Of a stretch of 64,000 bases of DNA, positions 2,765-60,500 are shown in pieces (within the stretch, counting starts at the first letter, position 1; the number at the start of each line of letters is the position of its first letter). The notes under the pieces are model-generated. The model made no database searches. It saw nothing but the letters and a program-made list of their open reading frames with translations, and was not told where the DNA came from. A program made the translations under genes and the position numbers. Source of the DNA: Bolinopsis microptera (lineage: Eukaryota > Ctenophora > Tentaculata > Lobata > Bolinopsidae); contig NC_087083.1 in the NCBI RefSeq assembly GCF_026151205.1, forward strand, positions 8,987,460 through 9,051,459, read 5' to 3'.

Positions 2765-3860
2765 CTTATTACTACTTACTGTGTTTGCGTCTGAGATGAT
2801 TCAGTAACAAAGATCACAATAGTGACTTTAGTATAATCATAAACTGAGTCCGAGTTTCAAACAAAGCTCGGAACATGAAACTTACTTTTGTCCGGAAAAC
2901 AAAATATATTTTCCTTTAATTGAAAAGAGTGGCTATCTGACCTCATCAGACAGCAGAGTGAATATGTGAAACAACACGAAAATAAAATATATGTACATCA
3001 TATCATCGGAAAGTCAAAAGAGAGAAGATCTAAAAATGATATTTGATCTCATTTTTTGACAGTACTAATCCATAATATTTAGAAAACATAACGTCGGTGC
3101 ATGGCATCACATCAACATAAACCCAAAAAAAAGCAGGATACAAAAATATTTGATCAAAGTTTTTTAAGGATGTAAAAAAAAGAGAGAATTAGATCATCAC
3201 TAAATACCGTTGACAAGCTCTCGACGAAAAGAGATATCCTCAGCTCATGATGAACACTCCTGGCTAACAGACGCCAGCCCACAACTCGCTAACAAGCTCG
3301 CTTCAAAGTGCCAACTACAGCTTCATATTAACACAAAAATTTATGAAGGAGCACCTACCGTCGAGAGTCCTGTCTCTTGGAGAGCTGAAATCAACTATTA
3401 CCAAAAGTTTTTAAAAAGATCACACGTGAAACACGTCAACAGGTGAAATATATCAACAGGTGAAGTTGGGGTTAAGTTAAAATTTACCAAAAGTACCGTT
3501 AGCATGGGTTCACAAAAACTGTTTAGAAGCTTTACGTTAGAGTGTTGTGATGGTATACACGTGGAAGTAGACTTTTTTCGACTACACAAATATTTACATG
3601 TGGACATGTACAAGCAGAAGTGTTACCCAAACCATGGTGATAATCACAGTAAATCTGAATATCATTGATAACGACTCAATCGAATCATGATATATTGGAT
3701 TAGAGTAGTTGACATCCTGCTGAAGGCATGAGGATCTATTATTGTCGCTACACGGTGATGCAACACTACCAGGTATTAAAACATAGTTCCTGGCTAAAAA
3801 TTCAATAATAACTTTATCATGGAAACTATAAACTGTAGCACACTGACAATATTCTTGATA

Positions 3861-6800
3861 TAATAAAACCCCAATTTGACGCAGAGGTTGGGCGAAAGGA
3901 AACGGTGTTAAATCGGTGTTTGTAGTAAATTGGGGCGGGGTAAATCGGTGTTTGCAGTAAATTGGGGCGGGGTAAATTGGTGTTTGCAGTAAATTGGGGC
4001 GGGGTAAATTGGTGTTTGCAGTAAATTGGGGCGGGGTAAATTGGTGTTTGCAGTAAATTGGGGCGGGGTAAATTGGTGTTTGCAGTAAATTGGGGCGGGG
4101 TAAATTGGTGTTAGCAGTAAATTGGGGCGGGGTAAATTGGTGTTTGCAGTAAATTGGGGCGGGGTAAATTGGTGTTTGCAGTAAATTGGGGCGGGGTAAA
4201 TTGGTGTTTGCAGTAAATTGGGGCGGGGTATATTGGTGTTTGCAGTAAATTGGGGCGGGGTAAATTGGTGTTTGCAGTAAATTGGGGCGGGGTAAATTGG
4301 TGTTTGCAGTAAATTGGGGCGGGGTAAATTGGTGTTTGCAGTAAATTGGGGCGGGGTAAATTGGTGTTTGCAGTAAATTGGGGCGGGGTATATTGGTGTT
4401 TGCAGTAAATTGGGGCGGGGTAAATTGGTGTTTGCAGTAAATTGGGGCGGGGTAAATTGGTGTTTGCAGTAAATTGGGGCGGGGTAAATTGGTGTTTGCA
4501 GTAAATTGGGGCGGGGTAAATTGGTGTTTGCAGTAAATTGGGGCGGGGTAAATTGGTGTTTGTAGTAAATTGGGGCGGGGTAAATCGGTGTTTGCAGTAA
4601 ATTGGGGCGGGGTAAATTGGTGTTTGCAGTAAATTGGGGCGGGGTAAATCGGTGTTTGCAGTAAATTGGGGCGGGGTAAATTGGTGTTTGTAGTAAATTG
4701 GGGCGGGGTAAATTGGTGTTTGTAGTAAATTGGGGCGGGGTAAATTGGTGTTTGCAGTAAATTGGGGCGGGGTAAATTGGTGTTTGTAGTAAATTGGGGC
4801 GGGGTAAATTGGTGTTTGCAGTAAATTGGGGCGGGGTAAATTGGTGTTTGCAGTAAATTGGGGCGGGGTAAATTGGTGTTTGTAGTAAATTGGGGCGGGG
4901 TAAATCGGTGTTTGCAGTAAATTGGGGCGGGGTAAATCGGTGTTTGTAGTAAATTGGGGCGGGGTAAATTGGTGTTTGTAGTAAATTGGGGCGGGGTAAA
5001 TCGGTGTTTGTAGTAAATTGGGGCGGGGTAAATCGGTGTTTGCAGTAAATTGGGGCGGGGTAAATTGGTGTTTGCAGTAAATTGGGGCGGGGTAAATTGG
5101 TGTTTGCAGTAAATTGGGGCGGGGTAAATTGGTGTTTGCAGTAAATTGGGGCGGGGTAAATTGGTGTTTGCAGTAAATTGGGGCGGGGTAAATTGGTGTT
5201 TGTAGTAAATTGGGGCGGGGTAAATCGGTGTTTGCAGTAAATTGGGGCGGGGTAAATTGGTGTTTGCAGTAAATTGGGGCGGGGTAAATCGGTGTTTGCA
5301 GTAAATTGGGGCGGGGTAAATTGGTGTTTGTAGTAAATTGGGGCGGGTTAAATTTGTGTTTGTAGTAAATTGGGGCGGGGTAAATTGGTGTTTGCAGTAA
5401 ATTGGGGCGGGGTAAATTGGTGTTTGTAGTAAATTGGGGCGGGGTAAATTGGTGTTTGCAGTAAATTGGGGCGGGGTAAATTGGTGTTTGTAGTAAATTG
5501 GGGCGGGGTAAATTGGTGTTTGCAGTAAATTGGGGCGGGGTAAATTGGTGTTTGCAGTAAATTGGGGCGGGGTAAATTGGTGTTTGTAGTAAATTGGGGC
5601 GGGGTAAATTGGTGTTTGTAGTAAATTGGGGCGGGGTAAATTGGTGTTTGCAGTAAATTGGGGCGGGGTAAATTGGTGTTTGTAGTAAATTGGGGCGGGG
5701 TAAATTGGTGTTTGCAGTAAATTGGGGCGGGGTAAATTGGTGTTTGCAGTAAATTGGGGCGGGGTAAATTGGTGTTTGTAGTAAATTGGGGCGGGGTAAA
5801 TTGGTGTTTGCAGTAAATTGGGGCGGGGTAGATTGGTGTTTGCAGTAAATTGGGGCGGGGTAAATTGGTGTTTGCAGTAAATTGGGGCGGGGTAAATTGG
5901 TGTTTGCAGTAAATTGGGGCGGGGTAAATTGGTGTTTGTAGTAAATTGGGGCGGGGTAAATTGGTGTTTGTAGTAAATTGGGGCGGGGTAAATTGGTGTT
6001 TGCAGTAAATTGGGGCGGGGTAAATTGGTGTTTGTAGTAAATTGGGGCGGGGTAAATTGGTGTTTGCAGTAAATTGGGGCGGGGTAAATTGGTGTTTGTA
6101 GTAAATTGGGGCGGGGTAAATTGGTGTTTGCAGTAAATTGGGGCGGGGTAAATTGGTGTTTGCAGTAAATTGGGGCGGGGTAAATCGGTGTTTGTAGTAA
6201 ATTGGGGCGGGGTAAATTGGTGTTTGCAGTAAATTGGGGCGGGATAAATCGGTGTTTGTAGTAAATTGGGGCGGGGTAAATTGGTGTTTGCAGTAAATTG
6301 GGGCGGGGTAAATCGGTGTTTGCAGTAAATTGGGGCGGGGTAAATTGGTGTTTGTAGTAAATTGGGGCGGGGTAAATTGGTGTTTGCAGTAAATTGGGGC
6401 GGGGTAAATTGGTGTTTGTAGTAAATTGGGGCGGGGTAAATTGGTGTTTGCAGTAAATTGGGGCGGGGTAAATTGGTGTTTGCAGTAAATTGGGGCGGGG
6501 TAAATTGGTGTTTGTAGTAAATTGGGGCGGGGTAAATTGGTGTTTGTAGTAAATTGGGGCGGGGTAAATTGGTGTTTGCAGTAAATTGGGGCGGGGTAAA
6601 TTGGTGTTTGTAGTAAATTGGGGCGGGGTAAATTGGTGTTTGCAGTAAATTGGGGCGGGGTAAATTGGTGTTTGCAGTAAATTGGGGCGGGGTAAATTGG
6701 TGTTTGTAGTAAATTGGGGCGGGGTAAATTGGTGTTTGCAGTAAATTGGGGCGGGGTAGATTGGTGTTTGCAGTAAATTGGGGCGGGGTAAATTGGTGTT

Positions 6801-9800
6801 TGCAGTAAATTGGGGCGGGGTAAATTGGTGTTTGCAGTAAATTGGGGCGGGGTAAATTGGTGTTTGTAGTAAATTGGGGCGGGGTAAATTGGTGTTTGTA
6901 GTAAATTGGGGCGGGGTAAATTGGTGTTTGCAGTAAATTGGGGCGGGGTAAATTGGTGTTTGTAGTAAATTGGGGCGGGGTAAATTGGTGTTTGCAGTAA
7001 ATTGGGGCGGGGTAAATTGGTGTTTGTAGTAAATTGGGGCGGGGTAAATTGGTGTTTGCAGTAAATTGGGGCGGGGTAAATTGGTGTTTGCAGTAAATTG
7101 GGGCGGGGTAAATCGGTGTTTGTAGTAAATTGGGGCGGGGTAAATTGGTGTTTGCAGTAAATTGGGGCGGGATAAATCGGTGTTTGTAGTAAATTGGGGC
7201 GGGGTAAATTGGTGTTTGCAGTAAATTGGGGCGGGGTAAATCGGTGTTTGCAGTAAATTGGGGCGGGGTAAATTGGTGTTTGTAGTAAATTGGGGCGGGG
7301 TAAATTGGTGTTTGCAGTAAATTGGGGCGGGGTAAATTGGTGTTTGTAGTAAATTGGGGCGGGGTAAATTGGTGTTTGCAGTAAATTGGGGCGGGGTAAA
7401 TTGGTGTTTGCAGTAAATTGGGGCGGGGTAAATCGGTGTTTGTAGTAAATTGGGGCGGGGTAAATTGGTGTTTGCAGTAAATTGGGGCGGGATAAATCGG
7501 TGTTTGTAGTAAATTGGGGCGGGGTAAATTGGTGTTTGCAGTAAATTGGGGCGGGGTAAATCGGTGTTTGCAGTAAATTGGGGCGGGGTAAATTGGTGTT
7601 TGCAGTAAATTGGGGCGGGGTAAATCGGTGTTTGCAGTAAATTGGGGCGGGGTAAATTGGTGTTTGCAGTAAATTGGGGCGGGGTAAATTGGTGTTTGCA
7701 GTAAATTGGGGCGGGGTAAATCGGTGTTTGTAGTAAATTGGGGCGGGGTAAATTGGTGTTTGCAGTAAATTGGGGCGGGGTAAATTGGTGTTTGCAGTAA
7801 ATTGGGGCGGGGTAAATTGGTGTTTGCAGTAAATTGGGGCGGGGTAAATCGGTGTTTGTAGTAAATTGGGGCGGGGTAAATTGGTGTTTGCAGTAAATTG
7901 GGGCGGGATAAATCGGTGTTTGTAGTAAATTGGGGCGGGGTAAATTGGTGTTTGCAGTAAATTGGGGCGGGGTAAATTGGTGTTTGCAGTAAATTGGGGC
8001 GGGGTAAATTGGTGTTTGTAGTAAATTGGGGCGGGGTAAATTGGTGTTTGCAGTAAATTGGGGCGGGGTAAATTGGTGTTTGTAGTAAATTGGGGCGGGG
8101 TAAATTGGTGTTTGCAGTAAATTGGGGCGGGGTAAATTGGTGTTTGTAGTAAATTGGGGCGGGGTAAATTGGTGTTTGCAGTAAATTGGGGCGGGGTAAA
8201 TTGGTGTTTGCAGTAAATTGGGGCGGGGTAAATCGGTGTTTGTAGTAAATTGGGGCGGGGTAAATTGGTGTTTGCAGTAAATTGGGGCGGGATAAATCGG
8301 TGTTTGTAGTAAATTGGGGCGGGGTAAATTGGTGTTTGTAGTAAATTGGGGCGGGGTAAATCGGTGTTTGCAGTAAATTGGGGCGGGGTAAATTGGTGTT
8401 TGTAGTAAATTGGGGCGGGGTAAATTGGTGTTTGCAGTAAATTGGGGCGGGGTAAATTGGTGTTTGTAGTAAATTGGGGCGGGGTAAATTGGTGTTTGCA
8501 GTAAATTGGGGCGGGGTAAATTGGTGTTTGCAGTAAATTGGGGCGGGGTAAATTGGTGTTTGTAGTAAATTGGGGCGGGGTAAATTGGTGTTTGCAGTAA
8601 ATTGGGGCGGGATAAATCGGTGTTTGTAGTAAATTGGGGCGGGGTAAATTGGTGTTTGCAGTAAATTGGGGCGGGGTTAATCGGTGTTTGCAGTAAATTG
8701 GGGCGGGGTAAATTGGTGTTTGCAGTAAATTGGGGCGGGGTAAATCGGTGTTTGCAGTAAATTGGGGCGGGGTAAATTGGTGTTTGCAGTAAATTGGGGC
8801 GGGGTAAATTGGTGTTTGCAGTAAATTGGGGCGGGGTAAATCGGTGTTTGTAGTAAATTGGGGCGGGGTAAATTGGTGTTTGCAGTAAATTGGGGCGGGA
8901 TAAATCGGTGTTTGTAGTAAATTGGGGCGGGGTAAATTGGTGTTTGCAGTAAATTGGGGCGGGGTAAATTGGTGTTTGCAGTAAATTGGGTTGGGGTAAA
9001 TCGGTGTTTGTAGTAAATTGGGGCGGGGTAAATTGGTGTTTGCAGTAAATTGGGGCGGGATAAATCGGTGTTTGTAGTAAATTGGGGCGGGGTAAATTGG
9101 TGTTTGCAGTAAATTGGGGCGGGGTAAATCGGTGTTTGCAGTAAATTGGGGCGGGGTAAATTGGTGTTTGTAGTAAATTGGGGCGGGGTAAATTGGTGTT
9201 TGCAGTAAATTGGGGCGGGGTAAATTGGTGTTTGCAGTAAATTGGGGCGGGGTAAATCGGTGTTTGTAGTAAATTGGGGCGGGGTAAATTGGTGTTTGCA
9301 GTAAATTGGGGCGGGATAAATCGGTGTTTGTAGTAAATTGGGGCGGGGTAAATTGGTGTTTGCAGTAAATTGGGGCGGGGTAAATCGGTGTTTGCAGTAA
9401 ATTGGGGCGGGGTAAATTGGTGTTTGCAGTAAATTGGGGCGGGGTAAATCGGTGTTTGCAGTAAATTGGGGCGGGGTAAATTGGTGTTTGCAGTAAATTG
9501 GGGCGGGGTAAATTGGTGTTTGCAGTAAATTGGGGCGGGGTAAATCGGTGTTTGTAGTAAATTGGGGCGGGGTAAATTGGTGTTTGCAGTAAATTGGGGC
9601 GGGGTAAATTGGTGTTTGCAGTAAATTGGGGCGGGGTAAATTGGTGTTTGCAGTAAATTGGGGCGGGGTAAATCGGTGTTTGTAGTAAATTGGGGCGGGG
9701 TAAATTGGTGTTTGCAGTAAATTGGGGCGGGATAAATCGGTGTTTGTAGTAAATTGGGGCGGGGTAAATTGGTGTTTGCAGTAAATTGGGGCGGGGTAAA

Positions 9801-11190
9801 TTGGTGTTTGCAGTAAATTGGGGCGGGGTAAATTGGTGTTTGTAGTAAATTGGGGCGGGGTAAATTGGTGTTTGCAGTAAATTGGGGCGGGGTAAATTGG
9901 TGTTTGTAGTAAATTGGGGCGGGGTAAATTGGTGTTTGCAGTAAATTGGGGCGGGGTAAATTGGTGTTTGTAGTAAATTGGGGCGGGGTAAATTGGTGTT
10001 TGCAGTAAATTGGGGCGGGGTAAATTGGTGTTTGCAGTAAATTGGGGCGGGGTAAATCGGTGTTTGTAGTAAATTGGGGCGGGGTAAATTGGTGTTTGCA
10101 GTAAATTGGGGCGGGATAAATCGGTGTTTGTAGTAAATTGGGGCGGGGTAAATTGGTGTTTGTAGTAAATTGGGGCGGGGTAAATCGGTGTTTGCAGTAA
10201 ATTGGGGCGGGGTAAATTGGTGTTTGTAGTAAATTGGGGCGGGGTAAATTGGTGTTTGCAGTAAATTGGGGCGGGGTAAATTGGTGTTTGTAGTAAATTG
10301 GGGCGGGGTAAATTGGTGTTTGCAGTAAATTGGGGCGGGGTAAATTGGTGTTTGCAGTAAATTGGGGCGGGGTAAATTGGTGTTTGTAGTAAATTGGGGC
10401 GGGGTAAATTGGTGTTTGCAGTAAATTGGGGCGGGATAAATCGGTGTTTGTAGTAAATTGGGGCGGGGTAAATTGGTGTTTGCAGTAAATTGGGGCGGGG
10501 TTAATCGGTGTTTGCAGTAAATTGGGGCGGGGTAAATTGGTGTTTGCAGTAAATTGGGGCGGGGTAAATCGGTGTTTGCAGTAAATTGGGGCGGGGTAAA
10601 TTGGTGTTTGCAGTAAATTGGGGCGGGGTAAATTGGTGTTTGCAGTAAATTGGGGCGGGGTAAATCGGTGTTTGTAGTAAATTGGGGCGGGGTAAATTGG
10701 TGTTTGCAGTAAATTGGGGCGGGATAAATCGGTGTTTGTAGTAAATTGGGGCGTGGTAAATTGGTGTTTGCAGTAAATTGGGGCGGGGTAAATTGGTGTT
10801 TGCAGTAAATTGGGTTGGGGTAAATCGGTGTTTGTAGTAAATTGGGGCGGGGTAAATTGGTGTTTGCAGTAAATTGGGGCGGGATAAATCGGTGTTTGTA
10901 GTAAATTGGGGCGGGGTAAATTGGTGTTTGCAGTAAATTGGGGCGGGGTAAATCGGTGTTTGCAGTAAATTGGGGCGGGGTAAATTGGTGTTTGCAGTAA
11001 ATTGGGGCGGGGTAAATCGGTGTTTGTAGTAAATTGGGGCGGGGTAAATTGGTGTTTGCAGTAAATTGGGGCGGGATAAATCGGTGTTTGTAGTAAATTG
11101 GGGCGGGGTAAATTGGTGTTTGCAGTAAATTGGGGCGGGGTAAATTGGTGTTTGCAGTAAATTGGGGCGGGGTAAATTGGTGTTTTACTG
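3861..11190. repeat. 32-bp satellite array (about 227 units) inside pogo-like transposon ends
   Basis: From 3909 to about 11184 the sequence is a head-to-tail array of a 32-bp unit of the form GTAAATYGGTGTTTG(C/T)A followed by GTAAATTGGGGCGGG. The first and last unit starts (3909 and 11173) are exactly 227 x 32 bp apart, so there is no net indel over 7.2 kb. Common variants are C/T in AAAT(C/T)GG, C/T in TTTG(C/T)AG and GGGATA for GGGGTA. The array is flanked by sequences like the ends of the pogo-like elements at 49679-50899 and 56641-56802: on the left AATAAAACCCC followed by ATTTGACGC, on the right GGTGTTTTACTG. TA precedes the left end and CA (one change from TA) follows the right end. 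The plus strand carries GGGGCGGGG once per unit, so it is G-rich. Confidence 0.95.
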
Positions 11191-14100
11191 CATTACCCTT
11201 ATACTCTTATATTAACGGTTAAAGTTCACAGACGGGTACTATAATGTTAGGGCAATAACAGAGCTATAATGTTTAAGTTAGACCTCACAGAAACTTTATG
11301 AACGCAACCCCATTTAGCAAGACCTCGCTAATGCACTATTTTGTCTATTATTTGGGTATAAACACTACGCAATACTCTAATGGACCACCAAATATGGTAA
11401 AAATGAAATTTCAGAACTTTTATTTATCGTAAAGTAGTTTCTTAAACAACAAACACGATATAAGCTTAGGTTGAAAGCATGTGGAGATGAAACGATCATT
11501 AAATAGTTACGCAAGGTACTGAACTTTACTAAGTTTAACATTTTATGTCGCTCAAGGTAAACGCTAAATATATTAGTAATATAATAGTATATAATGACAA
11601 TATAATATAATAGTAATATAATTAGTAATATAATATATACTTGAGAGTGTGGCTGCTATTATATTGTTAGCGCTGAGTGGTGATCTACTCCAGCTCAGTA
11701 CAATTCCTTATAATTACTGATATTTTATGTCTATATTCAGGCTCTAGGCAGCCTGGCAGCTGCAATTGGAATCTGGCAGCTGGTTCTCTCAACATTTCTG
11801 TAGTTAGCTTTATCTACGTTGAAAGATTAAAGAGAGAAAATATTTCTAATCACCAAAATCTGGCCTCTTTTTAAATTAATAACTCTCTCAGTTTTATGCA
11901 ACTCCGGGTATACTCCAATGATCTATTTAATTGGAAAATTTTTTAATTTAATTTAATCGTATTTAAGTTAATTAATTAATACTACTCATATTCAAATTCC
12001 TAGAAGCTTCTCAAGGTAAATTCCTAGAAGCATGATTCCTCTTTTTAAATGGAAATTCCTAGAGGCTTGTTTCCTCCTTCCCAAAGTGCATTTCAGTCAT
12101 AAGTGGTCCCAGACCGTCCGATATAGAACAAACTAATAACAAAGTACTACATTCGGCAGATTATCAAGGCAATAATAGGTACAGGACTGCAGACTAAATT
12201 TTAATACGGAATAAGGAGCAACCTGTTCGCAATAAGAATAATAGAGGCACAGAATAGTTAGGAACCTGTGCAGTACAGGAATAGAACACCTCTCAATAAA
12301 GGTGTTTAGAATTTTGCCTTTTGATCAGTCATAAAAATGAAAAAATAGGAAATCAAAATTGTCTAGATCATAGATTATCTAGAAAGTCTAGATAACGGGA
12401 AAAAGATTATCTATTTATCTAGGCGAGTTGATAATAATGGAAACCCTAGTCGGCACAGGCGTAATGTGCCAGTACGAGATACACAACACCTCTCTGTATA
12501 CAGCTCTGTATACAGCTCTGCTTGTGCCTCCCTTGGAATGTACTAGTAGTATTAACACTCAGCAAGGTTTTTGTAATTAATTAACTGATATATAGCTTAT
12601 AATATATAATATATGTAATATATAATGTAAGTTGTAGTGAAGACCGTGGGTGAATCCGTTATGGATTCGTCCGGGTGTTTGAGTAACGTACTATGTACGG
12701 ACTTTATTATACTTGTTTTTAATGCTCCTTTATAATGGCTGCTCCTTCAAAGTTTATAAAGTCATCTACAAGAGATAAAAACAGGATTAAAGCTGAATAT
12801 TACGTTTAATCAAATAGATTCAGTTGGCATAACAATGTCACGAATATAAAGTATGTTATTCGCTAATAGCTTTATCATGTTTATTCCGTCACGTGATTAA
12901 AATGAGCTGCTATGGTTAAGTTATGTTGTGATTAAGTGGGAAAAAATAATAAAAAGAATGAACTCATTTCATTAGAGGTGACTTTTATTTTTATATAAAT
13001 CAAGGGATCGCCATATGACTATGAGCTGTTATATCTGTATTTAAAAAAACATGCTACCGTTAAAAATAAGAGTCACGTTTTATTAAATAGTTAAATTTGC
13101 CTCATATATCAAAGGATCGTCAAAATCTAGCAACGTACCTGGGTGATCCTTTTACTTCTTTGAACTTAATAAATCGACAAATACCGTAAAACCATAAAAG
13201 ACAGCTTTAACGTAAGAATTCTGCATTTATTTAACTACAGAGACCCACTAAATATAAGAGCACTAATACTTCATAACAATTAATTTAGCTTGTTCCATAT
13301 GAGCTTTTCTAGTGACTTAGTGACAGTACTGACAGCTGTAGAGACAGTTCAGCACGTACATTATTAACAAATCACTGAATTTGATGAAGTCGCAGCCACT
13401 TCAGGGGGTACAGTAAATCGATAAATTCGAAGTCAATATTATATTTCGACTATATGTATAATCCAGCGGACCCGAATTGTAAGCAGTTTTTATCAAGTTA
13501 ACATCCGCACAAAACAATTGGTATTTGGTAATTAAGAAATGAAGCTGATGGTCAGGATCGAGGTAGCACTAATCAGTCACAGGACAATGTGTTCATTAGA
13601 CATGCACCTTACAGCTTACCTTGTATCGCCAACAAATCAATCATCATATTAAAGTGCTGAAAATGAACGAATAGTCATGACAATGACATGAATCTCCAAT
13701 TGCAAAGCTGCATGTCACCGTGCATGAATTGATCGTGAAAATGAATGTAGAAGTCACATCAATTGTCAATGCGTCAACGATAAATAGCTCACAGTAGATC
13801 TGCAGCTGTTGTGTGAAACTTGAAGATTAATGAAGTGCATGGGAAGTTAAGATTGGATCTCAGATCCGTGTCTTTGTTTTTTGTGGACCCGCACAGCAGC
13901 TGGTGCTCCTAATTCACCGTGCACACCTGCGTTAGATGGAATAGTCATGATAGACTAAGAATAGATTTGGAGCTGTTTATGCCCTGGAAAAATTTTAAAT
14001 GCAGACGTTTGGCCTTGGGTCTCTTTTCAACCGTCAGAGGAGTTAATCTAGCAAACGACAGCTAACCCTTTCCTGATTTATCCAGCGGAAATATGCTGCT

Positions 14101-27103: not shown

Positions 27104-30100
27104 TCACGTGATAAAGTACCTGTGTTTTGATGAGGAGGGGGAGTTGTGTTCGGAGGAGTTTGGAGTTAGATAGTGAGCCACTTCCGCGTTCTCGTTATCT
27201 GAGTCTGATTCCGGCGTGAGGGGCTGCGACTCCTGGGAAATTGTTTGTTATTCTCGTGAAATATTAAAATCACGCGATTATAATCACACAAATTATAATA
27301 GCATTAATTTTCACAAGTGAAATGTTTGTCTATTGTTGGTGTGGACTGGTGTGATATAACAGGGGCCGGGTGTGATATAGCAGGGGCCGGGTTTGATATA
27401 GCAAGGGACTGGTGTGATATAGCAGGGGCCGGGTGTGATATAGCAGGGGCCGGGTGTGATATAGCATGGGACTGGTGTGATATAGCAGGGGACTGGTGTG
27501 ATATAACAGGGGCCGGGTGTGATATAGCAGGGGCCGGGTGTGATATAGCAGGGGACTGGTGTGATATAGCAGAGGCCGGGTGTGATATAGCAGGGGACTG
27601 GTGTGATATAGCAGAGGCCGGGTGTGATATAGCAGGGGCCGGGTGTGATATAGCATGGGACTGGTGTGATATAGCAGGGGACTGGTGTGATATAACAGGG
27701 GCCGGGTGTGATATAGCAGGGGACTGGTGTGATATAGCATGGGACTGGTGTGATATAGCGTGGGACTGGTGTGATATAGCAGGGGACTGGTGTGATATAG
27801 CAGGGGACTGGTGTGATATAGCAGGGGCCGGGTGTGATATAGCAGGGGCCGGGTGTGATATAACAGGGGCCGGGTGTGATATAACAGGGGCCGGGTGTGA
27901 TATAGCATGGGACTGGTGTGATATAACAGGGGCCGGGTGTGATATAGCATGGGACTGGTGTGATATAGCATGGGACTGGTGTGATATAGCAGGGGACTGG
28001 TGTGATATAACAGGGGCCGGGTGTGATATAGCAGGGGACTGGTGTGATATAGCAGGGGCCGGGTGTGATATAGCAGGGGCCGGGTGTGATATAGCAGGGG
28101 ACTGGTGTGATATAGCAGGGGACTGGTGTGATATAGCAGGGGCCGGGTGTGATATAGCATGGGACTGGTGTGATATAGCAGGGGACTGGTGTGATATAGC
28201 AGGGGACTGGTGCACACTGCAAGTTTGTTTTAACACATGAGAGCCATCAACCAATCACTAATCAACTTGCAGAACCAGCCAATAATATTGCAGAATCACG
28301 TGTCAGAATAGACCTGTATCACACACACGACGATCAGCGTTGATCAACTTTATGATTAATCAACAATTTCATCAAATTATGGACATTATAAATCAACATG
28401 TTCTGTTTCCAGCAAATGAAAGTATTGGTCTCCAGTGACAATCTATACGTTAAAATAACACCACTTCGATATGCATACTTATAGTGCGTTAAAAATTGAA
28501 TTATATTAATTTCAAAACATTTATTAATCAAGATCATAAACATCCCGAAGTCACGTGATACAAAACAACCAATCAGAGGGCTGCATTCTGGTCACGTGAT
28601 ACAAAACAACCAATCAGGGGGCTGCATTCTAACCTGAAGTTCGTACACATCATGTAAGAGGGGTATTGCGTTAAAATGGGTCTGAATGTGATGTCGATCC
28701 TTTTTGTCAACATCTTCGAAATCTTTCAACTGCTGAGCTGGCTGGTCCTTTAGTACCTAAGGTGGTTATTTTACAATTAATAAAACTAGAAGTAAGAAAT
28801 GGTTACGAAAGTAATGGGAATTCACATAAATAATGGCGATGAGGTGATCCATATTTTCGCTGAAATAATTCTACATTTAAATCCGAACTCTAATACGGAA
28901 CTCTGCGTGTAAGACTTTTAAAACGAACCTGCGCATAAGGCTGCATCCAGTGACGACAAGATATGAGATCATCCCAACTGTAACCAGTAACCTCCTTCAG
29001 TTTGCTGGGGACCACTAACCATAGTGCACTAGCCGCGATCATACTCGGCCTGCAACCATCAAATTGTTAGCTTTAAGCTTATTGTAAGTTGTAACATTGG
29101 ATATTGGGAAAAATGTGAAAATTGTAACAGCTCAGCGAGATATTAGCGAGATATTAGGGGTGGGATATTGCAGGGATTTAGACGCCCACTTTTTAGGATT
29201 TCTCGGGTAAATGCAAATGTCAATGATACCCACAGGGTTGAGAAAACACAAATTTGTCGAATTTGACTGATTATGAATAACTAGTAAGGATAAAGGAAGT
29301 AATTAAGTAATAAGTACAATTAATCACCTATACTCGACGCTCTTAACATCAAGGGAACACAGGTCAATGAGTTGGATTATCTTCACAAAGTCGGACTGTG
29401 AGTATTCTGCTCTCAGAAACTGGAACGTAGTGCAACTGATACCTGAAGTAAAAATTGTATAGCCAATGAGAGGGAAGTATTCTAGTCACGTGACACAAAC
29501 TAGCCAATGATAAGGGAAGTATTCTAGTCACGTGACACAAACTAGCCAATGATAAGGGAAGTGTTCTAGTCACGTGACACAAACTAGCCAATGATAAGGG
29601 AAGTATTCTAGTCACGTGACACAAACTAGCCAATGATAAGGGAAGTATTCTAGTTACGTGACTGATAAAATAGCAACTGTTATCATGCCACGTGACATGC
29701 CACGTTTCAGTTCATTCACCAGATTAACGAACAGTAAATGAGTAAACAATCGCTTGATGTAATCGACCACCTCAAAGCAAGTTTGGGAATATATGTACTT
29801 ATTTAGTGATAAGATGATTCAGCTAACTGGGTCGGGTAAACATTTGACCGGATGAGGTGGCGACAACTTGTTGATTGATTGGGAGTCATGAATATTTTGG
29901 GTGTTACTGTGCGATCCGCCCTAAATGATTGATGGTGCATTGGTGCAGCAGCAGCATGTCAACGGTTCCTACACCACTACAGCTGATAACTACAATAGTG
30001 TATAAAAAGATAGGTATCTCACATAGGTACATCCAATCATCCACGAGTAAGAAAGAAAAGAAATGTGTAACTGTAACGATTAGTTTTGACTGGAAAGTTT

Positions 30101-39100: not shown

Positions 39101-42100
39101 ATACATGCAGAAAATTTGCATGATATTTACAAGATGCAGTGTTTTCAGCTGCTTATGGAGATCACACTTGAATGACTGAAGTTTGTTTGTTATAATTAAT
39201 TTATTCGATTAACACAGTTTCAGTAACCAACACAATTGAAGTTAAAAAACTAAACCAACCAATCAGACCAGAGTATCGGCACCACGTGACACAAACAACC
39301 AATCAGACCAGAGTATCAGCACCACGTGACACAAACTAACCAATCAGACCACAGTATCAGCACCACGTGACACAAACTAACCAATAAGACCACAATATCA
39401 GCACCACGTGACACAAACAACCAATCAGAGCACAGTATCAGCATCACACGTGACACAAATTAACCAATCAAAGCACAGTATTTAACTTACAGCACTGGTT
39501 GTGGGGGCTTGTTTGGGTTGGAGGGGTTTGAAGTGTGACTGTAGAGATGTTTGGCGTGACGATGCAGCCCCAGCTACACACTTCTTCTTCGTTCCCTCCT
39601 GAGAAGTGCGAATCGTTATTCTACGTTTATTAAACCTGAGTTTAAACTACTGACACAGTTTTAAAACTAGCTACTCAACTATTTCATAACACGCCCATAA
39701 GTGACTAAGGTGTGAGCTGATTTTTAAAAAGGTGATGAATATTTAGGATTGGGTGATGACCGAATACTTGGACTAAAACACGAACCGGTTTAAAAAGTGA
39801 TACTACCAACCAGTATGTCTCTACCAACAGTCTCTAATAAACTCACAGTCTCTTATAAACTCACAGTCTCTAATAAACTCACAGTCTCTAATAAACTCAC
39901 AGCCTCTAATAAACTCACAGTCTCCAATAAACTCAGAGTCTCTAATAAACTCACAGTCTCTAATAAACTCACAGCCTCTAATAAACTGACAGTCTCCAAT
40001 AAACTCACAGTCTCTTATAAACTCACAGCCTCTAATAAACTGACAGTCTCCAATAAACTCACAGTCTCTTATAAACTCACAGTCTCTAATAAACTCACTG
40101 TCTCTAATAAACTCACAGTCTCTAATAAACTCACAGTCTCTAATAAACTCACAGTCTCTAATAAACTCACAGTCTCTTATAAACTCACAGTCTCTAATAA
40201 ACTCACTGTCTCTAATAAACTCACAGTCTCTAATAAACTCACAGTCTCTTATAAACTCACAGTCTCTAATAAACTCACAGTCTCTAATAAACTCACAGTC
40301 TCTAATAAACTCACAGTCTCTAATAAACTCACAGTCTCCAATAAACTCACAGTCTCTAATAAACTCACAGTCTCTTATAAACTCACAGTCTCTAATAAAC
40401 TCACAGTCTCTAATAAACTCACAGTCTCCAATAAACTCACAGTCTCCAATTAACTCACAGTCTCTAATAAACTCACAGTCTCTAATAAACTCACAGTCTC
40501 TAATAAACTCACAGTCTCTAATAAACTCACAGTCTCTAATAAACTCACAGTCTCTAATAAACTCACAGTCTCTAATAAACTCACTGTCTCTAATAAACTC
40601 ACAGTCTCTAATAAACTCACTGTCTCTAATAAACTCACAGTCTCTTATAAACTCACAGTCTCTAATAAACTCACAGTCTCTAATAAACTCACTGTCTCTA
40701 ATAAACTCACAGTCTCTAATAAACTCACTGTCTCTAATAAACTCACAGTCTCTAATAAACTCACTGTCTCTAATAAACTCACAGTCTCTTATAAACTCAC
40801 AGTCTCTAATAAACTCACAGTCTCTAATAAACTCACTGTCTCTAATAAACACACAGTCTCTAATAAACTCACAGTCTCTAATAAACTCACTGTCTCTAAT
40901 AAACACACAGTCTCTAATAAACTCACAGTCTCTAATAAACTCACCGTCTCTAATAAACTCACAGTCTCTAATAAACTCACAGTCTCTAATAAACTCACAG
41001 TCTCTAATAAACTATCAGTCTCTAATAAACTCACAATCTCCAATAAACTCACAGTCTCCAATTAACTCACAGTCTCTAATAAACTCACAGTCTCTAATAA
41101 ACTCACAGTCTCTAATAAACTCACAGTCTCTAATAAACTCACAGTCTCTAATAAACTCACAGTCTCTAATAAACTCACAGTCTCTAATAAACTCACTGTC
41201 TCTAATAAACTCACAGTCTCTAATAAACTCACTGTCTCTAATAAACTCACAGTCTCTAATAAACTCACAGTCTCTAATAAACTCACAGTCTCTAATAAAC
41301 TCACTGTCTCTAATAAACTCACAGTCTCTAATAAACTCACTGTCTCTAATAAACTCACAGTCTCTAATAAACTCACCGTCTCTAATAAACTCACAGTCTC
41401 TTATAAACTCACTGTCTCTAATAAACTCACAGTCTCTAATAAACTCACTGTCTCTAATAAACACACAGTCTCTAATAAACTCACGGTCTCTAATAAACTC
41501 ACTGTCTCTAATAAACACACAGTCTCTAATAAACTCACAGTCTCTAATAAACTCACCGTCTCTAATAAACTCACAGTCTCTAATAAACTCACCGTCTCTA
41601 ATAAACTCACAGTCTCTAATAAACTCACAGTCTCTAATAAACTCACAGTCTCTAATAAACTATCAGTCTCTAATAAACTCACAATCTCCAGGGCGGGCAT
41701 GTTTTTTAGACTCTGGAGACAAGCTCCACTGCAGAAGTGCCTCATTCAGGCTGGATAAAGGACAAAAGTACCACCAGCGTGCTATTTGTAAAGAGTAAAG
41801 CAAATGCACAAACAAATATCAAGAGGATAACAGCCACGATCAGAACTTGTTAAGAAGCAGTGAGATTATATAGCCTCAATAAAGATTTTTAGTGGGCAGA
41901 GAGGGAACAGAGAAACCAAGAATTAAGACTGGTGAAGAAAAGTGGGGAAGAAACAATAGTCCTTGCTAAACGCAATGATTTCTGAAATCTGAATACTTCT
42001 TACACACTGATACTGCACTGTGTACATTGCTCAACACATAAGAAATAGACTCCCTCTATACTTAACAAACTTGTCAAAGAAACGAAGAAAAAACCCATAC

Positions 42101-48790: not shown

Positions 48791-51700
48791 ATGAGCTGCG
48801 CTTGCGGATTGAGTGACAAGGTTGAAGATCATGGAAGTGAAACATTTTGCATAGCATGTGGATCTATTGTCAAACAGGTAAGAGCACAAAATGCATTATT
48901 TTGGATTCAGATTTCCGGAAAGAAATAGGTACACTTGCTTAAGTGTTGCAACCAAATGAATTTGTGGCTCAAATCTATCATGCTAACAAAAAACCTTTTT
49001 CAGGACTTTCTTGTTGAGGATAAGCCCAACTTTTGGGACAAATTTCAGCATCAGCGCCATGATTTCACCAAAGATCCTGCTAACAAATTTGTTACACATG
49101 GCATATTTGGCTCCTCTAAAGAAACTTACAATATCAGGTAATTTTTACTTTACCATCTTTCTGTCCAGGGATCATTGACATGTGCATGTGCAGTGAGTTA
49201 AAAACTTTAAACTTTAAAAGTAGTTTAAAATTAGTGAAAATTTTATCTACACACCAACTCACTAAGTAACATGATCCAAAATGGTCTCTTAGAGCGTGGA
49301 AATCACATGACACTACAATGGTAAACAACATTTTGAGAGCGTGAGAAGAGAGAACTCTCTCTATGTCAATGACCCTTCCAGGAGAGCAACCTTTCCTTTT
49401 TTGAAGTAAGTTTCAATTCTAACACATTGACAGTATGAGCATACATTTCTGAACAAGATTACCCTACTATATTATATTTTATGCTGTGCCAAATTATCTC
49501 CCCCATGTACATCAAATTGTAAACATAGTGTGTACCGTATATAATTGATTTGGTAGGCAAACAATCTCATAGACTAAGTGACTGCAAAGTTAATTTGCAA
49601 GATATTGAACACCCTATTAGCTATTCATATGACACTAGATCAATTGCGACTATGCCATTCATAATAATGTATCATGTACAGTAAAACCCAGATTCACTGC
49701 GCCCAAATTTACCGCAAACCCTGATTTACCGTGAGTATTTCCTTTCCCCAAAATTTTTCTTCAAATATTTTTTTCGAAAATCTAGATTTTTTCAGAAAAG
49801 TTGAATTTTTTGCCTGGTCGACGTTGTCTGTAGAAGGACGTTTCAACGATTTCCGTTCAGACAAGCAGGGGAACCAAAGGTGATCTCATATCTTTCGAGT
49901 TCTGCTCATTTCTTTTTGATGTTTCGAACAGTTGTCTCACGATTCCAAAGTGTAGGGTAACTAAAGAGGAGGATTTGCCGCTCTTCAACATTTTGATCAC
50001 TTCTAATTCTCTCTTCTGTCCGATGGTTAGACGTTTTCGATTAGAGGAAGGAGATTCTCCGGTATTAGGTATAGCAGTGGCGTAACTTTGCCTGTTGGCG
50101 CCCCCCCGCTCAGTGACAAAAAGCGCCCCCTAAATTTTTTGTGTCCCTAAAAAAAAAAAAAAAAAAAGGTCGGGTACTTTTTTTCTCGCCCCCCTACAGC
50201 TTTTTGCGCCCCCCCCCCCCCCCTGAAGCAAAAAAGGTACCCTAAATATTTTCTCGCGTCGACCAAACGCTAAATTGGACAGGGAAATACACAAACAAGG
50301 CGTTTTTTCAGTGAAAGGGCTTAAAATTCAGGAAAATTGCGCCCCCCTTATACGGCGCCCCCCCCCCCCCCCCCCCCGCACAGCGGGGTCTGTGGGGCCC
50401 TAAGTTACGCCACTGAGGTATAGTGGAATTAGATTAGAGCAAGACACAAGCTCGTGCTCCACACTGCTTATTGAATCATGTAACCATAAAACCATGTTCT
50501 CGTATAATGCCTTTGCTACTGTGATGCTTGACAGTACTCCTATTACAGGGCATGGGCACCACTGTGTTTGAGAAGGGTCAGTTCGTGCTACAGGGGAATA
50601 TGTGATCTGATCATACAGATGTTGATAGCTAGTGATAATTACAGATTTCGATACGATTTGCAATGTACTGCAAAGAAAGCAAGAATTTGCTCAAACTGAA
50701 TTTCTATCATGTTGATACTATTAAGTTGCTGAGTACAATCAGACTATCAGAAATATCCACTCTATGGATTAAAGGCCTCTCCCACCCTTTCTTGGCCAAT
50801 TTTGGACCCCAAAAACCAAAACCCTGATTTACCGCAAACCCCGATTTACCACAGGTTTTAGCCTTCCCCAAAAACCCGCGGTAAATCGGGGTTTTACTGT
50901 ATAATGTATAAGTTTTTCGTGATATTAATGACACTTCCTTTTAAGTCAAGATTTATTTAGAAGATTTATGTAAAATCTTTTCCACCTTAAATTCACTATT
51001 TTATTGGTTACTATTTTCAGACAGAAGACTTTAAAGAAAAGAAACTTAATGATATCGTGTCACCAATTAAAGCTACCACACCCTGAACTGATAGCCGAGA
51101 CTGCCCTGAGCATGTTGGAGAAACACATTTTCAAACCTCGAAAACATATGCTACAAAAGCATCGTGCTGCTGCTATCTACACTAGTTGTAAATTACACAA
51201 CATTGAGATTACTTCTAGCGTGAGTTTTTTAAATATTGTTAATCTCGTCTTATTATCAATTATCAAATGGATGGTATTAGGCGAATAGATTAATGATTAT
51301 AAAAATCCCATCAATGTAAGCGCCCAAGTACTACACGATACCACAATCAATTGATCTCTAGAAATGCATAACTATTATATTATTTTCAGGAGATAATAGA
51401 CAGTTTGCAAGTTACTGGAAAACATCTTTCAACATTCTTTTTAAAGTTTTACAGGATGTGTACCAGTAATCACGACCAATTAAATACCGAGCTCAGCCAA
51501 TCCCAGCCAATCCACCTGGCTGACATTAAAGATCTAGAGATGAACGGTGTAATACCACCAGATTCATCTAGAACATTCCTAAAATACTGCTCGGATCTAA
51601 GTGAACTGTTCCCGGTGCCACCTGAACCCAGAAGACACACCAGCTATGGGAAACATAGTGGGTATTTTCTGAGAGATTCCCGACATCGGCTGGTGGTGTT

Positions 51701-54528: not shown

Positions 54529-57500
54529 ATGAACAGAGATGAAGCAGTACGGTGCATCAACATTGCAAAGAGATGTATCGCTGATGGGAACAATGAAAAG
54601 GCAGATAAGTTTCTTAAGAAGTCTCTTGCTTTACACGAAACAGCATTAGCAAAAGGTTGGAACTTAATCATGTTAATTATGTTTAATTAATTAGCAAAAG
54701 GTTGGAACTTGTTGTAACTTACCATGAATCATGTTAATGCGAAAGTTAAATTTGAGCAGCTTTTAATGCTACTTTATGATTCACCAAATTTCAGTAAAAT
54801 ACAAATTCTATTGAACCTCATCTTATACTCGTTATATTATGCAAAATAGAATAATGATCGTTCTAGCTCTCATTTTCCATGTTTTTGCCTCACAGGACTC
54901 AGGAGATATTGTGGTCTTTTCTAAATATAACTGTTATACATTGATGTAAAGTTTATTTGAATTTTGAAATTTAAAAAAACCAAGACTCATATTAAAATCT
55001 ACTACTACTTCAGAGTTACTAGCAGGCCTGGGTCGAACACCCCCAAAGTCCCCCACCTCCCCCTCCTCCTCCTCCACCACCAACGGTGATGCAACTCCAT
55101 CAGAGACCAGAAAACGACCCAATACGGGGGGTGGGACGGAGAGTAATGGGAAAGATGTTACTGCTGATATGATAGCTGCCGTTAACAAGTTTGTTATAAT
55201 TGTTTAATTGATTGTTTGTTTGATAGCTGTATAATAGTGGGTTGGCCAATGTCCAAAAGTTTAGAACTCGAGTACAGTCTCAATGTATATTGTATGAGGG
55301 TCTAATCTTCCAGCGTGACGTCACAACACAAGTATTGTCCTAATTCCCTTTGAAATGTGTTGGTTGAGCAGAGTATCACGTGATTGTGTTTACATCACGA
55401 CATACCATACATTTTGTTAAACATATGTAGGCAATTACAATTCTGTAGATAGACAAGAGTGTAGAAAATTATAAAACGTTAATTTTGATCCCCACTATTG
55501 GTTGCATTGCCCAAAATTCCGTAGATTCTGTGAAGTCAAAAAATAGATTTTACAATGTCATGATAGTTTACTTAACACAAATACAATAGATACTAATATG
55601 ATGTAATCCGCAGAGTGAAAGGTAAAAAAGATTACTACACAATTTTGGGATGTGAAAAGACCGCAACAGAACCCGAACTGAAGAAAGCGTACAGAAAGTT
55701 AGCACTTGCGCTTCATCCTGACAAGAACTGTGCTCCAGGCGCTAATGAGGCATTTAAATGTAGGTCACACTGTAGGTCACACTGTAGGTCACCTGTGTAC
55801 ACCCAGGCTAAATCTTTTAAATCAAAACAATAAATTTCCCTCGTTTATTCACATTCATGTTGGCACTGGTTTAATGTCAGTCTTATTTCTTAACAAATTC
55901 GCTGTTTGCCCGGAGTAAGACAGCTTCAATATTGTGTGCAGATATAATTGTTCGTTAATTGACGGATAATCACCCAATAAGTTAATTGACTTTGTTGCAG
56001 CGGTTGGAAACGCGTACGCAGTGCTGTCAAACAAAGAAAAAAGAGGACAATTTGATAAGTATGGATTTCAGGACGATTCCCCTTCTACTTCCCACCGAGG
56101 ACATAGTCACAGATATAACCGTTATTATCATGATGATGAGGGTAATTAGTTTATTAATTAGTGTATTAAGTAACCTATAAATTACTTTACATAGTTACTT
56201 AATTTCATTCGGTCTCATCCTGGTGCAGTTCAAGATAGTTAGTTATCTAACCCTTTCATTCCTAGATTCCAACAACTGCTCATTCCTCATTATAATTTAA
56301 AAAACTAATTTACCAACTAATTACCCGATTAACTTCAGATATAAGCCCGGAGGAGCTCTTCAACATGTTCTTCGGAGGAATGCAGCCCAACAACAGGAAC
56401 GGCCGTAGAGCAACATTCTATAATAACTACACTAGAGAACAAACTACTACAGGGGATAATAACGCCAGTGTTAGTTTACTTTTAGTATTAGTTTGGATTA
56501 TATTTGTTATATTTTTAATTTATATTAGGTTTAATTTACCTTTGTTATTGTTTTAGTAAAAATGTATTATATAGGTTTAGTTTACTTTTAGCATAGTGTT
56601 TGCTAATTTTTTGTATAGATTCACGTAAAATTAGTAAGTACAGTAAAACTCTAAAATACCGCGCCCAATTTACCGCAAACCCCGATTAATTTCCCCAAAA
56701 TAGGGCTCATGCAAAATGTAAACAAACAAAACCCGATTTACCGCAGACCCCGATGTTTCCTTTCCACAAATTTCCCGGTAAATTGGGGTTTTAGTTTTAC
56801 TGTATTTAGAATGAAGTTTTTCTGAATGCACTGGGATACCGACAAAAAGCGTTTATGGACATGACACTTCATTTGTTGGCTTTTCACTTTTCAATGGTGT
56901 CATCTTATATACGATGTGTATAATGTACTATTTACAGTGTACAATGTAAAGTTGTATTATTATTAATTGAATCTATATCATGTTACCTCTGCATCTCACA
57001 ATGGTTTAATTTGGTCTGCAAATTATGTGTATGATAATAAAGTCGTTCGTTAATTACCAATTATAACTGACCCTGCCTAGTTTCATAAATTTGTTACATA
57101 CACAACAAATTATAAATGACCCTGCCTAAATTTTAATTGTCAAGTTATTACCAACATAAAGTTATTATTTGTCTAACTACAAATTAATTATATAACTACA
57201 CTCGCATACTAACAATTTAATCTTAAGAGACAGCATTTAAGACTATTCCAGGTAATTAATTACTAATTATTTCTGATAACTAATTGCTAATTATTTCAGA
57301 TAGTATCATCGCTATTACAAATGTCGCCTTTGCTACTCCTAATCCTCATGTCGGTTCTCAACTCTATTTTCACTGAAGACCCTGCTTGGAGTTACCATAG
57401 AAACGGGTAAGTGAATATGTTTTGACACGTGACAGAGGTTCTGGGATTTGATTGGTAGCTCATTACTTACTGGAGACTCAGTAAATAATGGGGTAAGTGA

Positions 57501-60500
57501 GTTAGATCATTGCTTGATACTGATTTGTCGGTTGATATCACGTGACAAATAAAGTCAGATCTGGAATTCTATTATGTACTGTGATATCTCTTTAAGTTGT
57601 CTTTATTAGATGCAAGTTGAAAGTCTTTACTGTCTAATTATTGTACAGTGATTTATCCTCGCGCTGTATTACCATGCTAATTACCACGTTAATTACCATG
57701 CTAATTACGAAATGAACCGTAATATGTTTTGGTGAAATTCCAAGAACTGTGTCGTGCTTCTTTGCCGGAATCTTCACTGTCATCACGCCATTTGCGGACC
57801 ACCTCCTTGACTGTGCTATCCAGTTATTTTATCACAGAAACCTGAATGTAGCTATCTATCGGCACATTTCTGTCACTTCATCTGTCAAAATATGTCTGAA
57901 ATCTGTCTAAATCAGCCGTCACTACTATCGGTTTTTATTGCAGATTTCATGACACGACAAAATACGAAACTCATCCTTAAAAGCTATTCTACTGGTTTCA
58001 CCCTGTTTTGCTCTCACATTTAAACTGTCAGGCATTAGTAGAATTGCCAATATTATTTAGTCCAATTAGCTCTTTATCACTAACTTCACCACATTTGGTG
58101 TTTATCTTAATTGTACACTAATTATATCTACTCTCATTGTTCATAACAACTCCCTGATTGATCACCATTGACTGTGTATCATGTCACGTGACCCTTCTTT
58201 TACACGTCACCAAATAAAGGTGGTTTGTTTTTTTAAAGTTCCCGTTTCCCGTAAGTTCCCGTTTCCCGTAAGTTCCCGTTTCAAGTAAGTTCCCGTTTCA
58301 GGCAGTATAAAGTGGAAAGGTCGACATCGTGGAATACTATACGTTATTATGTTAAGGTAAGTTTTTATAATTTTGTAATTTATTTGTTAGTAATGATGCC
58401 TGATCAATTATTTAAAAAGATAAGGAAGTTAGAGTACTGTTAATTGATTAGGATGCTTGAGTTACATCCAGTAAATTTAAACAACTAATTTGGAGTGACC
58501 CCAAATCCCGTTATTAAAACACCTCCCGGTAACTAAACACCTCACGGTAAATAATATAGTGGCCCTTGGCTGCAAAGGATCAACAAATACCCACTAAAGC
58601 GGAGGATTACTCAAGAATCACTGTGTCCGTAAATAGAACACATTTCAGGGAGAATTTACAGAACAGTATACAAGCCAGAAGATATTACACCTAGAGTTCG
58701 AAATAGAGCGAGATTACAAACAAGATCTACAGATTAAATGCATCAACAATCAGCGGAGAAGTAAGTCAAGTGTAGAGTGTACCGACTAGACTACTGAGCT
58801 ATCCCTGAATTTAGGTTGAACACTGATTAGAACTGCGACATATTTGCCACAATAATTTGCACCCTTTAACGGAACGCGCGGAGCATTTTACACAGTGGCA
58901 AGGACCCAGTATCTCGTAGTGAAAACTGGCAATAGCTGCGCGGCGGTCTAGTTTGTGCCGCGCGGATACGACAATGTCATGGATTGGTTGTAGTCAAGGA
59001 TCTGACGACATTCCCGTCTATATAACTTCCGCCCCGGGGTTTGAGACTTGGGATACCTCAAGGGACCCATTAGAAACAAATTTGGCTTGGGTAGAAATTT
59101 TGGCTATGGTGCAGTTTTGCGCAATTGACCACGCCCTTTTTTGGCGCTTTTGCAACTTTAGAATCAAAATAACTCCGCTTCTAATTAGAATTAGAAGCTC
59201 AGCTTGGCTTTAAAGTTGTTCAGAATCATCACATTAAGGGGGGTAGAGCATAATTTTAAAGTCAACAGACATCGGGTTGTTGAGTTATGTGACCACACCC
59301 TTATTTACCCTCGCGAGTCGTGATTTTCACACTAAATACGAGATATCTCGGCTTCTGATTGAGCTACGTGCTCATCCTGGGCATTAAAATGTTCAGAATC
59401 ATCACATTGAGTAGGGTAGAGCACAATTTCAAAGTCCTCAGATGTCAGGTTGTTGAGTTATTAGGCCCCAACCTGTTTTTACGCTTTCGCGGGTAGCGAT
59501 TGCAGCGCTTAAAATCAAAATAACTCAGCTTCCAATTGAAGTTAGGAGCAAAACTCGGGCAGCAAAATGTTCACAATCATCATATTGAGTGGGGTAGAAC
59601 GTAGTTTCAAAGTCCTCAGACGTCAGATTGTTGAGTTATTAGGCCCCGCCCAAATGTTTACGCTCTCGCGAGTCCCGATTCGACGCTTAAAATCAAAATA
59701 ACTCTGCTTCTGATTAGAGTTAGGAACTAAACTTGGGCATAAAAATGTTCAGAATCATCACATTGAGTGGGGTAAAACGTAGTTTCAAAGTCCTCAGACG
59801 TCAGGTTGTTGAGTTATTAGGCCCACACCATAGTATTTACGCTCTCGCGAGTCGGGAGTGGACACTTAAAATCAAAATAACTCGGCTTCTGATTAGAGTT
59901 AGGAACAAAACTTGGGCATGGAAATGTTCAGAATTATCACATTGAGTGGGGTAGAACGTGGTTTCAAAGTCTTCAGACGTCAGGTTGTTGAGTTATTAGG
60001 CCCACACCATAGTATTTACGCTCTCGCGAGTCGCGAGTGGACACTTAAAATCAAAATAACTCGGCTTCTGATTAGAGTTAGGAACAAAACTTGGGCATGG
60101 AAATGTTCAGAATTATCACATTGAGTGGGGTAGAACGTGGTTTCAAAGTCTTCAGACGTCAGGTTGTTGAGTTATTAGGCCCCAACCTGTTTTTACGCTC
60201 TCGCGGGTAGCGATTGCAGCGCTTAAAATCAAAATAACTCAGCTTCCAATTGAAGTTAGGAGCAAAACTCGGGCAGCAAAATGTTCACAATCATCACATT
60301 GAGTGGGGTAGAACGTAATTTCAAAGTCTTCAGACGTCAGGTTGTTGAGTTATTAGGTCCCATCTTATTTGTATGCTCAGGCGAGTCGTGAGTCGACGCT
60401 TAAAATTAAAATAAATCTGCCTCTGATTGGAGTTAGCAAGTCAACTTGAACATACAAATTTTTAGGATTATTGAATTGAGTGGAGTAGAGCGTGGGTTCA

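Follow-up and report, generated by a model that had tools for sequence, protein, structure and literature searches.

The 64,000-nucleotide stretch analysed here (the window, C12:8987460-9051459, of a host genome of 264.65 Mb in 232 contigs) contains a 7.3-kb element at 3861-11190 which has both of its ends and encloses 227 full 32-bp units. We conclude that this array was very probably born by in-place expansion inside a MITE and was then carried to 227 units by unequal exchange.

The array was recovered by TRF as an uninterrupted tract at 3909-11185 with 96-97% matches and 0% indels, and cutting it at 32 bp gave 227 full units, the number of in-phase units claimed in the initial annotation. 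The units are of 13 kinds, the five commonest making up 215 of the 227, and most of the variation consists of C/T at unit positions 6 and 15 and G/A at the last position. At the right end, the 228th unit passes in register into GTTTTACTG. By its length, which is the length as assembled, the array ranks with large minisatellites or short satellites; classical satellites form abundant heterochromatic or centromeric arrays, whereas one long array of the 32-bp unit was found genome-wide. A CENP-B-box satellite was considered and rejected, the TTCGNNNNANNCGGG core being absent from the array even at one mismatch. Two more long tandem arrays are present in the window, at 39827-41688 (18 bp x 103) and 27343-28212 (21 bp x 41). 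The features of the element and of its relatives in the window are compiled in Table 1.

Table 1. Coordinates of the array, the enclosing element, its internal duplications and its relatives in the window
Feature	Position	Strand	Basis
227 tandem 32-bp units, commonest TAAATTGGTGTTTGCAGTAAATTGGGGCGGGG	3909..11172	+	TRF, unit cutting
Element left end: terminal inverted repeat TAATAAAACCCCAATTTGAC and AGAGGTTGGGCGAAAGGAAAC stretch common to L023	3861..3908	+	alignment score, multiple alignment
Element right end: beginning of 228th unit, in register into terminal inverted repeat (TAAATTGGTGTTTTACTG)	11173..11190	+	sequence, alignment
Target-site dinucleotide TA, left	3859..3860		sequence; family copies TA-flanked
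Target-site dinucleotide, right: CA in place of TA	11191..11192		sequence
Run of 49 consecutive units, found again in unchanged order at 9157-10724, offset 57 units (1824 bp): block duplication	7333..8900	+	unit-type string
34 consecutive units, recurring 29 units (928 bp) on at 6341-7428: second block duplication	5413..6500	+	unit-type string
TA-flanked 1.2-kb relative, same ends and same GTAAAT motifs	49679..50899		sequence, alignment
162-bp relative, same ends, TA on both sides	56641..56802		sequence, alignment

The flanks of the array had been described as resembling transposon termini at about 19 of 22 bases on the right and about 17 of 22 on the left, and our measurements came close to those figures, the right end (GGTAAATTGGTGTTTTACTG) agreeing with the family end at 18 of 20 bases and the left at 15 of 20. 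Alignment of the left end with L023, a one-unit relative on another chromosome, gave a score of 24, whereas 2000 shuffles reached at most 10.5 and 8065 50-mers from elsewhere in the window at most 11; on account of this left-end score, an accidental likeness of the flanks to family ends was rejected. The two TA-flanked elements used for comparison in the initial annotation exist as described, but the best models for the window element are one-unit copies of about 101 bp, L023 and L080, which align with it end to end. Within the 1.2-kb relative, the stretch at ~50070-50420 has long runs of C, is enclosed by two similar sequences in inverted orientation (GTGGCGTAACTT and AAGTTACGCCAC) and is apparently a nested insertion.

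Genome-wide, a 26-base right-end pattern with at most 3 mismatches returned 429 + 452 = 881 matches, and the reversed control returned 0. The double motif GTAAATYGGKGTTTGYRGTAAATYGGGG returned 618 + 376 matches, part of the forward count coming from the window array itself, with a control of 0. Short terminal inverted repeats (CAGTAAAACCCCGATTTACC) in inverted orientation and many short copies without coding capacity characterise the family as a MITE family; complete copies are mostly 101-190 bp long, and many have TA on both sides, as expected of a target-site duplication. The window element has TA and CA, the latter being one transition from TA. A literature search found no paper on the family end sequence.

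The standard form of the family is ~187 bp long and carries, on its left side, a GTAAAT pair 17 bp apart followed by a stretch of roughly 57-76 bp and, at its right end, three GTAAAT motifs with spacings of 17 and 15 bp, the last motif being the terminal repeat itself. The 17-bp offset between GTAAAT halves noted at the outset is real and a trait of the whole family, and the subrepeat adjoins the end throughout. In the alignment, the 101-bp form (L023, L080) resembles a standard form that has lost sequence between its two similar halves, presumably by deletion.

The length of the unit is accounted for by this layout, since the right-end spacings add up to 17 + 15 = 32 bp. Mispairing among three right-end motifs should therefore yield repeat units of 17, 15 and 32 bp, and all three predicted ladders are present inside family ends. 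The 17-bp ladders comprise L010 (~46 motifs), L009 (18 motifs), L027, L071 and L076, while the 15-bp ladder, the rarest of the three types seen, is represented by L026 (C11:8.50 Mb) with seven 15-bp steps. Ladders of 32 bp were found with two units in L015, L017, L020 and L025, with four in L012 and in mixed form in L011; the window insertion is the extreme of this series, which has a wide gap between 4 and 227 units. The proposed match between the 32-bp unit and the subterminal motif of the family was borne out, the window unit agreeing at 25-28 of 32 bases with the 32-bp blocks at the ends of relatives, which attests to homology between array and element.

Evidence for a change of unit number in place came from L012 (C4, ~3.85 Mb) and L017 (C4, ~3.60 Mb), which are duplicated loci with the same flanks. 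An alignment of 448 columns that takes in both flanks shows three substitutions and a single 64-bp gap of exactly two units between them, L012 having four units and L017 two, so that unit number varies within copies of one insertion. From this single 64-bp gap, we conclude that unit number alters inside the element after insertion. Judging by the alignment, the difference is equally compatible with gain and with loss of two units. Such a change was seen in one of four duplicated sets; the others (L013/L014, two copies in L021 and three in L024) kept the same motif layout. No empty or short allele of the window insertion was found in this assembly in a search by the left flank, because the left flank is single-copy. 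Growth of a subterminal repeat within one insertion, as suggested in the initial annotation, is thus supported by the family-wide subrepeat beside the end, by relatives with 1, 2 and 4 units framed by family ends, by the L012/L017 pair and by the in-register junction.

According to the proposed mechanism, a short non-autonomous DNA transposon (MITE, TA target site) would have inserted at a now single-copy site, its right end carrying three GTAAAT motifs at spacings of 17 and 15 bp, of which the outermost belongs to the terminal inverted repeat. Out-of-register pairing of the first motif with the terminal motif, 32 bp away, would duplicate a 32-bp block and leave the terminus intact and, with several units present, unequal exchange of ever larger blocks could have led to 227 units and kept them homogeneous. 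The terminal motif had its derived bases in common with the adjacent unit more often in expanded copies (7 of 10) than in unexpanded ones (4 of 24; Fisher p = 0.005; p = 0.013 without L017 and the window), in a small sample in which bases within one copy are non-independent; this sharing is consistent with new units arising through exchange with the terminal motif. The later steps are reflected in the unit order of the big array, where the 49- and 34-unit runs of Table 1 recur at offsets of 57 and 29 units, while no repeat exceeded 12 units when the unit order was shuffled 200 times. Large-block unequal exchange is favoured as the best explanation of these recurrences.

Growth in place might also have proceeded mainly by replication slippage or by repair synthesis on the G-rich strand, a possible but rather less probable course. 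The strand is strongly skewed, with 40% G and 6% C, the unit contains GGGGCGGGG, and the early one- or two-unit steps are small enough for slippage. Duplication of whole 57- and 29-unit blocks, however, is far beyond ordinary slippage, even if the first steps could still have occurred in that way, and we infer that exchange rather than replication slippage drove the growth of the array.

An origin outside the element is very improbable, be it that the transposon captured a pre-existing 32-bp satellite or that a circular-DNA concatemer arrived. Capture has been proposed in the literature for a comparable MITE, miDNA4, as presented in PMC12628747, but the 32-bp unit here is the family's own end sequence, and the window array continues into the terminal repeat without a break in register. 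A genome search with the array sequence revealed no second long array of the unit, in unrelated flanks or otherwise independent of the element; the 32-bp junction pattern had 239 forward and 16 reverse matches in the genome and, among the matches listed, most lie in the window array. It is just as improbable that the transposon-like flanks are coincidental or that the array length is an assembly artefact. Long near-identical blocks are prone to misassembly, yet the two copies of the 57-unit block differ from each other by private variants, and the left-end match reported above speaks against coincidence. Expansion within the MITE followed by unequal exchange is hence the reading we adopt.

As to the superfamily, a TA site and CAGT ends are common to the wider Tc1/mariner/pogo group. 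The label "pogo-like" given in the initial annotation is unproven: the ends and the TA site fit this whole superfamily, and the DDE_1 elements examined have other ends. Matches to DDE_1, HTH_psq, HTH_Tnp_Tc5 and CENP-B_N exist in the host genome, and no autonomous partner with family ends was seen among the candidates with these domains that were examined, the comparison covering part of the 881 ends. Only at L075 does a family motif lie near a DDE_1 match; it is part of a distinct 185-bp copy, and L075 was accordingly rejected as a DDE_1-linked family element. Two 99% identical DDE_1 elements, L029 (C1:22.24 Mb) and L030 (C13:9.48 Mb), with HTH_psq in L029, the one scanned, carry four copies of GGGGTAAAACGGACC at one end and thus represent end-proximal repeats in a second family.

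That tandem repeats in MITEs and foldback elements expand into satellites has been established in broad terms (PMC12628747, PMC9659126). The closest known system to the window element is Tetris / TIR-220, a foldback transposon of Drosophila virilis (Dias et al. 2014, PMC4079207), in which tandem repeats likewise lie inside terminal repeats and apparently derive from end sequence. Comparable to the unit-number variation seen here, Tetris has two alleles one unit apart (3 and 4), and both systems have kb-size arrays flanked by terminal domains, and no source transposase has been found for either (PMC4079207 for Tetris). In contrast, the Tetris unit is ~220 bp long instead of 32 bp and follows no motif-spacing rule, whereas spacing explains the length of the window unit; the Tetris repeats reside in long foldback arms and not beside one short end, and Tetris forms many heterochromatic arrays, compared with one long array at a single locus. 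Elsewhere in the window, at ~58990-62112, a foldback-like element was found that resembles Tetris in build, each of its two inverted arms being composed of tandem 178-bp repeats (59158-60505 and 60816-61953). Among the matches listed for this 178-bp family, there are many +/- pairs that share a contig, 97-99% identical and mostly 1-5 kb apart, and the family therefore looks recently mobile.

Other systems share individual traits with the window element. The Xenopus Tc1/mariner MITE miDNA4 (Scalvenzi and Pollet 2014, as covered in PMC12628747 and PMC9659126) has the same TA-type superfamily assignment and either one monomer or a variable-length array between its ends, but its repeat is proposed in PMC12628747 to be a captured one, while that of the window element is its own end sequence. 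For Xstir, MITE-linked repeats of Xenopus (Hikosaka and Kawahara 2004, as covered in PMC12628747), a MITE, a tandem array and composites occur in one genome, as here; the model outlined there has a stem-loop joining two neighbouring elements, whereas the window case needs one insertion. Galileo of Drosophila, as cited in PMC4079207, also has tandem repeats in its terminal repeats, reported there with extra transposase-binding sites, and by analogy the GTAAAT motif may be a putative transposase-binding site. The route from transposon repeat to satellite is thus already known, and the present case is distinct in its very short unit, its spacing-explained length and its single 227-unit outlier.

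If terminal-motif mispairing repeatedly seeds 15-, 17- or 32-bp arrays, the MITE family would for this reason continually give rise to minisatellites, and the 227 units might present ~450 putative binding sites for its transposase or a derived host protein; we offer this extension as a speculative and on balance doubtful one. An explanation of unit length by motif spacing is seldom possible for a satellite. One genome here shows a probable ancestor, intermediates, duplicated loci that differ in place and an end product between both transposon ends, an unusually complete view of a satellite's beginning. Ancestor, intermediates and product can rarely be seen side by side, and the early growth steps can now be tested at named loci in further individuals and species.
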